Below the pieces are notes generated by a model. The model worked only from the letters and a program-made list of their open reading frames with translations. It was not told the origin of the DNA and made no database searches. The position numbers were made by a program, and so were the translations under genes. Of a stretch of 64,000 bases of DNA, positions 3 through 8,456 are shown in pieces. Each line of letters starts with the position of its first letter. The first letter of the stretch is position 1. This DNA comes from Sinomonas atrocyanea (GTDB lineage Bacteria > Actinomycetota > Actinomycetes > Actinomycetales > Micrococcaceae): positions 372,001 to 436,000 of the forward strand of contig NZ_JAUSRH010000002.1 of assembly GCF_030811715.1 (NCBI RefSeq), read 5' to 3'.

Positions 3-812
3 CCCGACCACGCGCCGTCGCACGCCGAGAACGGCCGCGGGCCGTCCGCATGGAGCCCGCCGAGCCTCCTCATCGACGCGGTGCCCTGGGGCAAGCCCGC
101 GCAGCCCGAGCCCGCCCAGGGAGGAGTGCCCCCGCACCGCCCCCGGCCCCGGGCCCAGAGCGAGATGCACTACCCCGAGCCGCCGCCGGCTGACGGGCCG
201 CAGGGCCGCTCGATCACGTCCGAGCTCTACAGCGACCACGACGGCGAGACGGTCATGCGCAGCGAGCTGGACCCGGCCTCGCTGGGCGCGGAGGGCGGCC
301 AGGACCGCGCCGGCCCGGCTCCGGCTGCCGCCGCCCAGGCCCGCGCGGCGGCGGGTCCGCTGGTGCTCGGCCGCCGGTGTGCGCAGGGGCACTCGAGCCC
401 GCCCTCGTACCCCCAGTGCGCGGTCTGCGGCGAGCACCTCGAGGGTGATCCGGTGCAGGTCCCGCGTCCGGCCCTGGGCCGCGTGGTCTTCTCCACCGGG
501 GAGGTCATTGACCTCGTCCAGCCGCTCGTGGTGGGCCGCCAGCCCTCGGTCTCGCGCGTGGCCAGCGGCGGGATGCCGCGCCTCGTCTCGGTCACGAGCC
601 CCTCGGGGGACATCTCGCGCAACCACCTCGAGGTCCGCCTCGAGGGCTGGCACGTCATGGTCCGCGACCTCAAGGCGACCAACGGCACGGTGCTCGAGCG
701 GCCCGGCCAGGCGCCGCGCCGGCTCGCCCAGGGCGAGATGACGATTGTGCTCGACGGCGACGTCGCGGACCTGGGCGACGGCGTGAGCCTGCGCTTCGAG
801 GCGGTGCCGTGA
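3..812 (+). CDS. FHA-domain protein, 5' end outside the window
   Basis: The reading frame stays open from the window edge, so the gene very probably begins upstream; the first in-frame start inside the window is GTG 81, but the residues before it (SLLIDAVPWGKP) read like protein. The middle holds a small cysteine/histidine cluster (CAQGH followed by CAVCG) resembling a zinc ribbon, after a low-complexity Pro/Ala region. The last ~110 residues (from about nt 485) form an FHA fold: VVGRQPSV, SRNHLEVRLE and the NGT-type turn in DLKATNGTVL, the usual phosphothreonine-binding motifs. It overlaps the next gene, a Ser/Thr kinase, by 4 nt, so the two are translationally coupled and the FHA domain plausibly binds kinase-phosphorylated partners. 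Family call is firm; partner is inference. Confidence 0.85.
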   Translation, partial: PDHAPSHAENGRGPSAWSPPSLLIDAVPWGKPAQPEPAQGGVPPHRPRPRAQSEMHYPEPPPADGPQGRSITSELYSDHDGETVMRSELDPASLGAEGGQDRAGPAPAAAAQARAAAGPLVLGRRCAQGHSSPPSYPQCAVCGEHLEGDPVQVPRPALGRVVFSTGEVIDLVQPLVVGRQPSVSRVASGGMPRLVSVTSPSGDISRNHLEVRLEGWHVMVRDLKATNGTVLERPGQAPRRLAQGEMTIVLDGDVADLGDGVSLRFEAVP

Positions 813-2608
813 GCTCGAAGCGGCCCCCGGCCCCGCCCCCCGACCTCAAGGGCTTCAGGTACCTGAGCCTGCTCGGCTCGGGCGGCTTCTCCGACGTCTA
901 CCTGTACGAGCAGGACAGGCCCCGCCGCAAGGTCGCCGTCAAGGTGCTCCTGTCCGACCTGCGCACCGAGAGCGCGCGCCGGCAGTTCGAGACCGAGGCC
1001 AACCTGATGGCCCAGCTCTCCTCGCACCCGTACATCGTGACGATCTACCAGGCGGAGATCACTGACGGCGGCCACTCCTACCTCGCAATGGAGTACTGCT
1101 CGCGCCCGAGCCTGGACATCCGCTACCGCCGGGAGCGGCTCAGCGTCGACGAGGTCCTCGCGGTCGGCATCCAGGTCGCCTCCGCGGTCGAGACCGCCCA
1201 TCGTGCCGGGATCGCGCACCGCGACATCAAGCCGGCCAACATCCTCGTCACCGACTACAACCGGCCCGCCCTGACGGACTTCGGGATCTCGGGCACCGTG
1301 GAAGGCGGCGGGGACGCGGACATGGGCATGTCCATCCCGTGGTCGCCCCCCGAGTCATTCCGCGGCAGCGTGGCCGACGGCGTGGCCCTGGACGTCTGGG
1401 CCCTCGGCGCGACCCTGTACACGCTCCTCGCGGGCCGCTCGCCGTTCGTCATCCCGGGCGGGGACAACTCGCAACGGGCGCTCGTGCAGCGCATCCACAC
1501 CTCGCCGGTCCCGCCGCTGGGCCGCGCCGACGTGCCGGAGTCGCTCGAGCTCGTGCTCGCGACCGCGATGTCCAAGGCGCCCGAGAGCCGCTACTCCTCG
1601 GCCCACACGTTCGCCCTCGCGCTGCAGCGGATCCAGAACGAGCTCAGCCTCTCGGTGACGCCGTTCGAGGTGCTCGAGGAGCCCTCGGACGACGACGACC
1701 CCGACTCCTCCTACGAGGAGACCCGCGTGCGGGGCGTCGTCGCGATCAACCCCCACGGCCCCCGCGCGGGCACCGGGACGGGGGCGGCACCGGGCCGGAC
1801 TGTGCCCGGCCGGACGGTGCCGGGCGGTTCAGGGCGCACCGTCCCCGGACGCACGACGCCGTTCCCCGACTCGGGCGCGGGCCTCGCCGGGGCACCGGGC
1901 GACGGCACGGCGCCGGGGGACACCACAGCGGGACGGGACGACACCGTCGCGCGCGGCCGGACCGGCACCGTGCCGGGCACGCAGGTGGCCCTCCACGGGC
2001 CCGGGGCGGGCGCCGAGCCGGAGGCCGACCCGACCGTGCTGCGCGGCGATGCGACGGGCGCCGACGCGACGGTCCTGCGGGGCCGCCTCGCGGGGACCGG
2101 GCAGCCCGGAGCAGGGCAGGGGCCAGAAGACGGCAGCCGCGAGGACGCCGACGGCGAGGAGCGCGCCGCCGCCGTGCGCCGCCGTCGTACGCTGCTGGCC
2201 TCCTCCGCCGCCGGCGTGGTCCTCGTCGCCGCGGTCGGGGCCGGGATCGTGCTCGCGCCCGGCCTCGCCAACCGTCCTGCGCCGAACCAGACCACGTACA
2301 GCGCCCCGCCGGTCGACGCGGTGGACTCCGGCGCGGTGCCCAACGTCACCGGTCTGAAGGGGACCGCGGACGCCTCGGGCGTCACGTTCACCTGGAAGAA
2401 CCCGCAGCCCAAGCCCGGCGACGCCTACCTCGTCACGGTGCTGCGCCTGACGGGGCAGCAGCCGCCCACCACGGTCACCGCAACGAAGGCCACCGTGCCC
2501 AAGGAAGCCTCGGGGCAGACCTGCGTGCGCGTCGTGGTGCGGCGCAGCGACGGCGCGGCCGGGCCGATGGACGACTCCGCGCCGAGCGCGTGCGTGAGCA
2601 CCAAGTGA
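809..2608 (+). CDS. transmembrane serine/threonine protein kinase (PknB type)
   Basis: A 599-residue Hanks-type kinase. The N-terminal ~270 residues carry the glycine loop GSGGFSDV (23-30), ATP lysine K45 in KVAVKVL, catalytic loop HRDIKPAN (H137, R138, D139), DFG at 157-159 and the WSPPESF variant of the APE motif. A long Pro/Gly/Thr-rich linker (~residues 310-450) contains repeated RTVPG/DATVLRG-like segments rich in threonine, possible phosphorylation sites. An Arg-rich stop is followed by one membrane helix (~463-485), then an extracellular ~100-residue fibronectin-III-like domain with WKNPQPKPGDAYLV. GTG start overlaps the upstream FHA gene. It heads an FHA/EssC/WXG100 locus, so it likely phosphorylates FHA ligands of that secretion apparatus; this role is inferred from context. 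Confidence 0.9.
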   Translation: MSSKRPPAPPPDLKGFRYLSLLGSGGFSDVYLYEQDRPRRKVAVKVLLSDLRTESARRQFETEANLMAQLSSHPYIVTIYQAEITDGGHSYLAMEYCSRPSLDIRYRRERLSVDEVLAVGIQVASAVETAHRAGIAHRDIKPANILVTDYNRPALTDFGISGTVEGGGDADMGMSIPWSPPESFRGSVADGVALDVWALGATLYTLLAGRSPFVIPGGDNSQRALVQRIHTSPVPPLGRADVPESLELVLATAMSKAPESRYSSAHTFALALQRIQNELSLSVTPFEVLEEPSDDDDPDSSYEETRVRGVVAINPHGPRAGTGTGAAPGRTVPGRTVPGGSGRTVPGRTTPFPDSGAGLAGAPGDGTAPGDTTAGRDDTVARGRTGTVPGTQVALHGPGAGAEPEADPTVLRGDATGADATVLRGRLAGTGQPGAGQGPEDGSREDADGEERAAAVRRRRTLLASSAAGVVLVAAVGAGIVLAPGLANRPAPNQTTYSAPPVDAVDSGAVPNVTGLKGTADASGVTFTWKNPQPKPGDAYLVTVLRLTGQQPPTTVTATKATVPKEASGQTCVRVVVRRSDGAAGPMDDSAPSACVSTK

Positions 2609-2679
2609 GACTGCCCGGCGGCGCGACGCGCCACGGGGACCATGTGAATGTCCGAACTGGGGAGACGGAGCACACACGA

Positions 2680-7986: not shown

Positions 7987-8171
7987 GTCCTTCCGAACCT
8001 CGTCCCTATTCGTGGGAGGGCGCGCGCTCGGGTGGGGAGGAGTCCCCATCGCGGGTCCGGCAGTGAACCGATAGGTTGGTCTTCGAACGCGAGGCCCCCT
8101 CTGGGAACGAAACGGGGGTGGCTGCGCGGGGGATTCCTGGACACGCCGGGGACGTATCGAAAGGAAACACC

Positions 8172-8456
8172 ATGGCTATTCAGCAGGGCGCCAACGTTGC
8201 CGAGCTCCGCGGTGTCGCGAAGCAGTTCGACGCGAAGGCCAACGAGGTGGACCAGATCAAGAACAACCTCAACGCGCTGATCAACAACAACATCCCGGCG
8301 AACTGGGCCGGCCGCGACGCCGAGCAGTTCAAGGGCGAGTGGCAGTCCACGGGCATGAAGTCCCTGGCCAAGCTCGTCGAGCAGCTGCGCGACGCCTCGC
8401 GCACCATGAACACCAACGCCACCGCCCAGGAGCAGACCTCCAGCAGCCTGCACTAG
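8172..8456 (+). CDS. WXG100 family type VII secretion substrate
   Basis: A 94-residue helical-hairpin protein, the usual ESAT-6/WXG100 length. The central turn carries W-A-G at residues 45-47 ([11 protein letters not shown]), flanked by two amphipathic helices rich in Gln, Asn and Ala. No signal peptide, as expected. The C-terminal tail [14 protein letters not shown] lacks Tyr, so the YxxxD/E export signal known from mycobacterial ESX substrates is missing. ATG 8172 is chosen over upstream in-frame starts because AAAGGAAA precedes it at ideal distance and the family begins here. A 185-bp gap from the ATPase gene suggests its own promoter, allowing higher expression than the apparatus; a perfect 18-bp hairpin terminates it. 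Confidence 0.93.

Follow-up and report, generated by a model that had tools for sequence, protein, structure and literature searches.

A T7SSd-like secretion locus with putative phosphothreonine control in Sinomonas atrocyanea

The closest described counterpart of the locus considered here is the T7SSd class of type VII secretion system (T7SS), published in 2024 (Garrett, Higginson and Palmer, PMC11217815), which comprises an ATPase with a phosphothreonine-competent FHA domain, a WXG100 protein, a kinase and an Ig-like giant. The class is reported to have five core parts without a ubiquitin-like protein, a lack which that survey finds surprising, and its authors already raised control by phosphorylation (PMC11217815); the terms 'transglutaminase', 'MoxR' and 'Micrococc-' do not occur in the main text of that paper. 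The subject of the present analysis is a gene run at the start of a 64,000-nucleotide stretch of the Sinomonas atrocyanea genome (contig NZ_JAUSRH010000002.1, positions 372,001 to 436,000; hereafter the window), which is built around an EssC/TsdC-like ATPase here labelled TsxC. With a probability of roughly 60%, the locus specifies an export motor resembling that of T7SSd and controlled through phosphothreonine. New here are a predicted ubiquitin-like domain fused to the motor, a threonine-specific motif enrichment, the retention of the FHA pocket wherever a kinase is found, and the occurrence of the associated module without this motor or with an ESX set.

With T7SSd the locus shares its presence in Actinomycetota, an EssC-like ATPase with a phosphothreonine-competent FHA, a WXG100 protein, a transmembrane kinase and a large Ig/FN3-type protein, and neither has a separate ubiquitin-like gene. 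Of the core features of the class, an FHA-bearing ATPase with an intact pocket, a WXG100 gene at the locus and a transmembrane kinase are found here; the large, Ig-like, envelope-spanning TsdI may have its counterparts in FN3 giants encoded in the genome, unlinked to the run. Beyond the T7SSd description lie the predicted ubiquitin-like domain built into the motor, a PP2C phosphatase, an RDD-FHA protein, a 676-aa FHA protein, an FHA/winged-helix protein, MoxR, DUF58 and a transglutaminase. The T7SSe class likewise groups its motor with a kinase, a PPM phosphatase and an additional FHA protein, but it is reported in Bacillota only and includes TseJ, TseK, two WXG100 proteins and a free-standing ubiquitin-like protein, TseB (PMC11217815). 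T7SSa (ESX; EccB, EccC, EccD, mycosin) shares an FtsK-type motor and WXG100, with the YukD domain carried by EccD, and an EccC/EccD set fills the same slot in two related genera; it differs in that the window's genome is without EccD/YukD, the EccC models score below their cut-offs and the TsxC clade lies apart from the four EccC proteins tested. In T7SSb, EssC is the best NCBIfam match and likewise carries FHA before the membrane helices; however, TsxC has a ubiquitin-like domain plus FHA in contrast to the tandem FHA of EssC and misses the EssC cut-off, and the kinase has the usual catalytic motifs (by eye), unlike the pseudokinase EssB. The TsxC locus best fits T7SSd, enlarged by a module like the PFNA operon of Bifidobacterium; set beside TsdC by description, it is T7SSd-like by its parts and likely a member of the class.

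The gene run and its motor

The window start holds the 3' half of a same-strand gene run of ~16.9 kb, with the order MoxR AAA+, DUF58, TgpA-like transglutaminase, RDD-FHA, PP2C, 676-aa FHA protein, kinase, pseudo-FHA/winged-helix protein (P0003), TsxC and WXG100. Pfam backs every assignment except that of P0003 (the families include AAA_3, DUF58, Transglut_core/TgpA_N and Pkinase), and neighbouring genes overlap or directly adjoin, save for a gap of 185 nt between the ATPase and WXG100 genes and, if the winged-helix gene starts at 2680, one of 71 nt before it. The five genes recognised in the initial annotation of the window (FHA, kinase, FHA-like/winged-helix, ATPase with FHA, and WXG100) are all present on the + strand, with corrected coordinates, although the first of them, a real gene, is cut by the window edge. 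Genes outside the window come from our own open reading frame (ORF) caller, which sometimes reports an antisense ORF instead (e.g., L086, L088, L096, L237), so that gene counts are lower bounds; the flanking-gene names LigA, BirA, adenylate cyclase and PH were given by look, without a family search. The features in the window are:

1..812, + strand: 3' part of the gene for the 676-aa FHA protein, which starts ~1.2 kb upstream (L006:14783-16813); C-terminal FHA, Pfam E 4.3e-5; T-V-x-R motifs (residues 193, 325 and 490) lie in a long stretch of low complexity
809..2608, + strand: transmembrane Ser/Thr kinase (Hanks type), 599 aa, Pfam Pkinase E 2.2e-40
860..1603, + strand: kinase domain, residues 18-265, Pfam PF00069
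1721..2080, + strand: juxtamembrane linker of the kinase; its four T-[VR]-x-R motifs (Thr codons at 1721, 1943, 2033 and 2069) are putative phosphothreonine docking sites
2213..2269, + strand: predicted single transmembrane helix of the kinase, by hydropathy
2680..3450 (alternative GTG start 2605; 2680 more likely), + strand: pseudo-FHA and winged-helix-like protein P0003, with a degenerate phosphothreonine pocket
3451..7986, + strand: TsxC ATPase, EssC/TsdC-like, 1511 aa; FtsK_SpoIIIE E 1.2e-53, FHA E 1.2e-11
3451..3750, + strand: predicted N-terminal ubiquitin-like (YukD-like) domain of TsxC, residues 1-100
3838..4119, + strand: canonical FHA of TsxC, residues 130-223 (R157, S171, H174, N192)
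4255..4380, + strand: two probable transmembrane helices of TsxC, residues ~269-310, by eye, with hydropathy counts for orthologues
5548..6072, + strand: first FtsK-type ATPase domain of TsxC, Walker A and DEF Walker B seen by eye in this copy and present in 78/78 orthologues
8172..8456, + strand: WXG100 protein (EsxA/TsdA-like), 94 aa, Pfam E 7e-10

The best NCBIfam model for TsxC is EssC, at 544.7 bits below its cut-off of 778.4, and the EccCa (338.3 bits, cut-off 509.15) and EccCb (328 bits, cut-off 346.55) models likewise remain below theirs; a generic DNA pump was rejected, as the EssC/EccC models score far above those of FtsK. In a quick tree of 49 ATPases, TsxC and 25 named relatives are split from four EccC proteins by a branch with 100% SH-aLRT support, and the nearest named relative among the matches listed is from Sinomonas mesophila (84%). 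A complete ESX locus upstream was also rejected, none being seen in 16 kb (ORF calls, six genes Pfam-checked), and the gene calls of the upstream stretch include nothing recognisable as EssA, EssB or EsaA, no genome-wide search having been made for them. A genome-wide search for the YukD/EccD family (PF08817) gave nothing at E<=0.1, with a positive B. subtilis control; EccB has no match genome-wide, though the control genomes gave none either. Thus, the view of the architecture as neither classic ESX nor classic T7SSb stands, on account of both the 16 kb upstream and the sub-threshold EccC and EssC scores; the absence of EccD extends from the window to the genome, the control for EccB was silent, and the architecture is less unusual than first supposed, given the T7SSd precedent of 2024 (PMC11217815).

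As read from its sequence and structure model, TsxC is a membrane ATPase with, in order, a ubiquitin-like domain, a phosphothreonine-competent FHA, two transmembrane helices and the ATPase domains. The prediction that the N-terminal ~100 residues form a ubiquitin-like/YukD domain draws on several comparisons. The AlphaFold model of residues 1-100 has the succession strand-strand-helix-strand-strand-strand, followed by the FHA at 130-223; pLDDT is 85-94 across the core and drops to 66-77 in an insert (residues 41-60). A profile of 21 TsxC-type N-termini, among them those of distant actinobacterial motors and of the genome's second EssC-like ATPase, recovers ubiquitins as its top PDB matches (best E 1.1e-7), with Snm4, which we take to be EccD, at E 0.22. 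Six of these 21 N-termini match Pfam YukD at E<=1 (best E 2.2e-4), and in the genome searches the YukD model reached the N-terminus of one TsxC with E 0.0067, short of its cut-off; in one such search, PF08817 was found in 11/16 genomes, one match being a TsxC N-terminus. Aligned by hhalign with 24 YukD-family domains of other genomes, the TsxC N-termini give a probability of 91% over 79 columns (92% with 17 distant TsxC sequences alone), as against at most 0.6% in 40 column shuffles and 0.4% for the reversed alignment.

The possibility that this domain is instead a degenerate FHA, in the manner of the EssC tandem, is highly improbable. EssC does have two beta-sandwich domains at the same place (PMC4925161), a 'twin-FHA' of EssC is mentioned in PMC7002343, and the N-terminus of the window's own TsxC, searched alone, has no Pfam family match; however, the model places a helix inside a five-strand grasp, the PDB profile matches are ubiquitins, and the hhalign match to the TsxC FHA, at 67.7%, is confined to 16 columns in the linker that both share. 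The 50 Foldseek matches listed for the TsxC model are all of FHA type and thus bear on the FHA half of the model. A fused ubiquitin-like domain would fill the component reported missing from T7SSd; if correct, it would remove the exceptional status of that class and make the YukD-ATPase contact testable on one polypeptide. No earlier description of such a motor-fused domain was found in a literature search in which subscription papers were mostly out of reach.

Phosphothreonine motifs and FHA pockets

The phosphothreonine pocket of the TsxC FHA (R157, S171, H174, N192) is intact in 75/79 sequences overall. It is retained in all 65 loci that carry a kinase, the window included, and in 10 of the 14 without a kinase in the fetched stretch, the remaining four being degenerate; two of 80 TsxC sequences were excluded from the tally for a missing start, and the fetched stretch is short for some loci (L182 with 2.2 kb and L200 with 2 kb upstream). 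The four degenerate versions come from Rhodococcus, Mycobacterium, Mycolicibacterium and Mycolicibacter records, and the three of them placed in the tree cluster together, inside the Micrococcales motors. By sequence pattern, the FHA is canonical in 61/62 of the 676-aa FHA proteins and 61/62 of the RDD-FHA proteins, and in 0/65 of the pseudo-FHA proteins.

The motif T-[V/M/I/L/R]-x-R was counted against expectations from shuffled regions, with its serine version as a control. Across the linkers of 64 kinases the threonine motif was observed 165 times versus 12.5 expected, occurring in 63/64, while the serine version stands at 5 versus 9.9; within the kinase domain itself the threonine motif is depleted (6 versus 25.4 expected). 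The tails of the PP2C proteins (52 versus 4.2; serine version 0 versus 2.8) and the middle region of the 676-aa FHA protein (59 versus 8.4; serine version 5 versus 10.7) show the same pattern. The sequence sets are related; with one locus per genus or lineage, which corrects for kinship in part only, the counts are 37 versus 3.4 for the kinase (maximum of 10 in 500 shuffles, 16/17 kinases), 13 versus 1.4 for PP2C (13/16) and 15 versus 2.5 for the 676-aa FHA protein (12/16). This specificity for threonine over serine is what FHA docking predicts. The kinase of the window has a fifth motif match at residue 543, beyond the membrane helix. The Bifidobacterium kinase Pkb2 reportedly phosphorylates the MoxR of its own cluster (PMC6803598).

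In mechanistic terms, the kinase might autophosphorylate the threonines in the T-x-x-R motifs of its own cytoplasmic linker, and these phosphothreonines could then act as docking sites for the FHA domains of three proteins (TsxC, RDD-FHA and the 676-aa FHA protein), so that the motor is assembled in the membrane or activated there. PP2C, with the same motif in its tail, would be recruited and reset the switch. The built-in ubiquitin-like domain could replace a free YukD/EsaB or the EccD cytoplasmic domain in contacting the ATPase, and the FN3/Ig-like giant, unlinked in Sinomonas, would be the likely envelope-spanning part, analogous to TsdI, on which MoxR, DUF58 and the transglutaminase may act. 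The winged-helix protein, for its part, may report the state of the machine to transcription, as EspM does for ESX-1.

EspM is a regulator of ESX-1 with an FHA half and a helix-turn-helix half (PMC7002343). P0003 has no Pfam/NCBIfam match above cut-off, but its AlphaFold model has a beta-sandwich followed by a helical, winged-helix-like domain with a small wing, and Foldseek finds FHA domains first (6ccd, E 6.3e-5, probability 1.00). The pocket Ser and His are replaced (H45, F48; by eye), and Arg32 is invariant in 29 sequences. EspM and P0003 are alike in having an FHA followed by a helix-turn-helix-type half and in being coded beside a T7SS; they differ in that P0003 lies outside the NCBIfam EspM model, with no match at E<=0.05. 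By this analogy, the likeliest role of P0003 would be that of a reporter or regulator like EspM.

Conservation of the module and alternative readings

A scan for TsxC relatives confirmed at least 576 among 589 stretches, of which 80 named loci were kept, 70 with at least 9 kb upstream. Among these 70, RDD-FHA and the transglutaminase are each found in 64, the FHA/winged-helix gene and the 676-aa FHA protein each in 60, the kinase and PP2C each in 59, and DUF58 in 57, whereas MoxR, seen in 14, mostly lies beyond the fetched stretch. The kinase and FHA genes are thus kept in most orthologous loci. In 197 family genomes, the FHA/winged-helix gene, taken as a marker of the module, occurs in 77 and TsxC in 41; TsxC was counted at E<=1e-150 with two candidates scored per genome, so that divergent motors are missed. 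All 41 TsxC genomes hold the marker, 36 of them adjacently (a hand count in which one, G385, is a partial match 1.3 kb away), and TsxC is absent at that threshold from all 120 genomes without it; if genomes were independent, the chance of this co-occurrence would be 3e-21. TsxC is not present lineage-wide, a candidate rejected on its occurrence in 41/197 family genomes and in 5/11 of Sinomonas, the window's included.

The module was present in all 18 of the marker genomes without TsxC that were fetched. Among the first 15 of these loci, 12 have no T7SS ATPase within a few kb of the module and three have an EccC-like ATPase, as do three further genomes of the same two genera, chosen for this purpose; in G326, the one run against the models, cut-offs are exceeded by EccCa/EccCb (737.7 and 618.2 bits) and by EccD (105.8 bits). 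A ligA gene, named by look, lies on the far side in G326 and G339, the two read there. The slot between the winged-helix gene and ligA is thus filled by a T7SSd-like motor, an ESX set, or nothing. EccC-like ATPases with EccD-like proteins stand beside the kinase/FHA module at L236, L238, L239, L240 and L241, in two other genera (of these loci, L236 alone was compared with the models). These ESX-type slots have large neighbours, and the one tested (L237) is weakly WXG100-like (E 0.037).

The PFNA operon of Bifidobacterium comprises pkb2, fn3, aaa-atp, duf58 and tgm (PMC8430577). Going by sequence, kinase, MoxR, DUF58, transglutaminase, PP2C and FHA genes appear together both there and in the present run, which at the Pfam family level holds a pkb2-like kinase, aaa-atp (MoxR), duf58 and tgm; fn3 lies in the cluster in PFNA but is unlinked in Sinomonas. 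A large FN3/Ig-type gene precedes MoxR in 26/31 relatives whose stretch reaches MoxR, and in 26/27 outside Sinomonas; outside Sinomonas, gene content thus equals the PFNA operon plus a T7SS motor. The window's genome has two unlinked FN3/Ig-type proteins of ~2000 aa (C5 at 48% and C6 at 44% against the MoxR-linked protein of G008), and loss of FN3 from Sinomonas was accordingly rejected. Full-length FN3 is found in 5/5 Sinomonas genomes with TsxC and in 0/6 without (a short 36% match occurs in G398). The motor of a Bifidobacteriaceae metagenome-assembled genome (L202) falls inside the TsxC clade, but its locus has no PFNA genes, by eye, within the fetched flanks, such that the identity of PFNA with T7SSd in Bifidobacterium itself can be drawn only indirectly; we infer that the bifidobacterial TsdI would be FN3. 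In the three PFNA papers searched by term, 'secretion' and 'WXG' do not occur, nor does FtsK in the two where it was a search term, and a term search of the accessible literature found no paper joining PFNA, Bifidobacterium and 'type VII secretion'. If correct, the link would suggest a possible role within a secretion machine for the bifidobacterial FN3 protein, which has been studied for its cytokine binding.

Several points weigh against phosphothreonine control of a T7SSd-like motor. Secretion, phosphorylation and binding are what we infer for a system known here from genes and models alone; the motif was first spotted in the window's own kinase and tested afterwards, and T-x-x-R docking presumes that the FHA recognises Arg at +3. 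The threonine motif shows no excess in RDD-FHA linkers (8 versus 7.2 expected) or in transglutaminase tails (25 versus 29.6), and because the serine version exceeds expectation in the latter (53 versus 30.7), letter shuffles are an imperfect null. The pocket is also kept at the 10 of 14 loci without a nearby kinase, and the four pocket losses look like one clade and hence, as three sit together in the tree, count as one event. The 32 closer TsxC sequences alone give a YukD match of 27%. No TsdH-like small single-helix protein is found among the called run genes, for which no TsdH query was used, and although a small WXG100 was recognised in 40/72 loci with more than 2 kb downstream, none was recognised in the fetched flank of the other 32. 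Motor and FHA/winged-helix gene are unlinked in 5/41 genomes, and the marker occurs without this motor in 36/77, from which it follows that the module cannot serve TsxC alone; its first client may be FN3/transglutaminase.

These distributions also bear on an unlikely, though by no means negligible, alternative in which two neighbours have been taken for one system, namely an envelope/adhesion module (FN3, MoxR, DUF58, transglutaminase, kinase and FHA) that a compact T7SS of TsxC and WXG100 merely adjoins. Bifidobacterial PFNA has indeed been proposed as a cell-envelope/adhesion system of its own, and the wider spread of the marker (77/197) than of TsxC (41), the 12/15 TsxC-less loci with no T7SS ATPase beside the module, the five unlinked genomes and the Mycobacteriales TsxC loci without a kinase in the fetched stretch all point that way. 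Mere adjacency, however, sits poorly with the lack of TsxC in the 120 marker-less genomes, with an ESX set taking the same slot in two other genera, and with an FHA that stays phosphothreonine-competent wherever a kinase is seen. Less probable again is an ordinary member of the 2024 class, for which phosphorylation control was already proposed, leaving a novelty that is taxonomic only. The class description in PMC11217815 is matched by the WXG100, the FHA-bearing ATPase with intact pocket, the transmembrane kinase and the Ig/FN3 giants, all in the genome; this reading nevertheless leaves aside the predicted built-in ubiquitin-like domain, none being reported at T7SSd, the addition of PP2C, RDD-FHA, FHA/winged helix, MoxR, DUF58 and transglutaminase, and the failure to find TsdH among the called run genes.

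The reading as a T7SSd-like motor under phosphothreonine control remains the preferred one. The earlier proposal that secretion is gated by kinase-FHA signalling has gained from the motif and FHA-pocket results and lost from the 36/77 marker genomes without this motor; on the sequences compared, the case for gating is stronger than at the time of the proposal, though short of proof. Through the threonine-specific motif and the FHA pocket, 'perhaps phosphorylation-controlled' becomes a matter of specific residues that can be tested. A broader proposal, advanced here tentatively, is that a portable phosphothreonine cassette (FN3, MoxR, DUF58, transglutaminase, RDD-FHA, PP2C, FHA protein, kinase and pseudo-FHA/winged helix) might serve varied T7 motors, either a ubiquitin-like/FHA-fused T7SSd-like ATPase or ESX EccC/EccD, via a T-x-x-R code common to kinase, phosphatase and adaptor. 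Were this true, the bifidobacterial PFNA 'immune signal' operon and T7SSd would be two views of one machine.

WXG100 genes and further loci

The WXG100 gene of the window (8172-8456) has an unlinked twin, L251 (C14:76612 onward), whose site is syntenic in the window's genome, G456, G301 and G415; in G415, the unlinked copy is the only one found. Within a genome, linked and unlinked copies are identical at 280-282 of 282 nt in four species (the window's, G456, G378 and G301), yet between the window's genome and G301 the gene is only 77% identical. On account of this near-identity within and divergence between genomes, the twins are taken to evolve in concert, probably by gene conversion. Sinomonas genomes with TsxC have 4-5 WXG100-family matches in the five cases (the window's 5), those without have 1-2 in six, and each of the 26 other genomes searched had some WXG100 match, whether or not it carries TsxC.

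Two larger proteins with an N-terminal WXG100 domain (L010:7836-8873 and L011:9309-10244, one just under the Pfam cut-off) each adjoin small proteins and are candidate substrates with partners; none of these companions reaches a Pfam cut-off. A further WXG100 gene, L009:11109-11399 (C20), stands beside an apparent two-component system. The second EssC-like ATPase of the genome, L045:9986-14107 (C10), carries an FHA and, judging from the alignment alone, may begin with a ubiquitin-like domain; no WXG100 was recognised beside it.

Loci L177, L181, L182 and L183, from Rhodococcus and mycobacteria, combine TsxC with WXG100-type genes and have no kinase in the fetched stretch; the three of the four motors placed in the tree nest among Micrococcales motors, which suggests transfer. 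L148, labelled Sporosarcina beigongshangi, has an Arthrobacter-type gene run with a motor at 60% identity and is probably a mislabelled genome. Finally, a full-length TsxC (61%) is present on the 1.35 Mb plasmid record NZ_AP024648.1 of Arthrobacter sp. StoSoilB13 (H1), the sole one of 68 matching plasmid records to cover at least 80% of the query.

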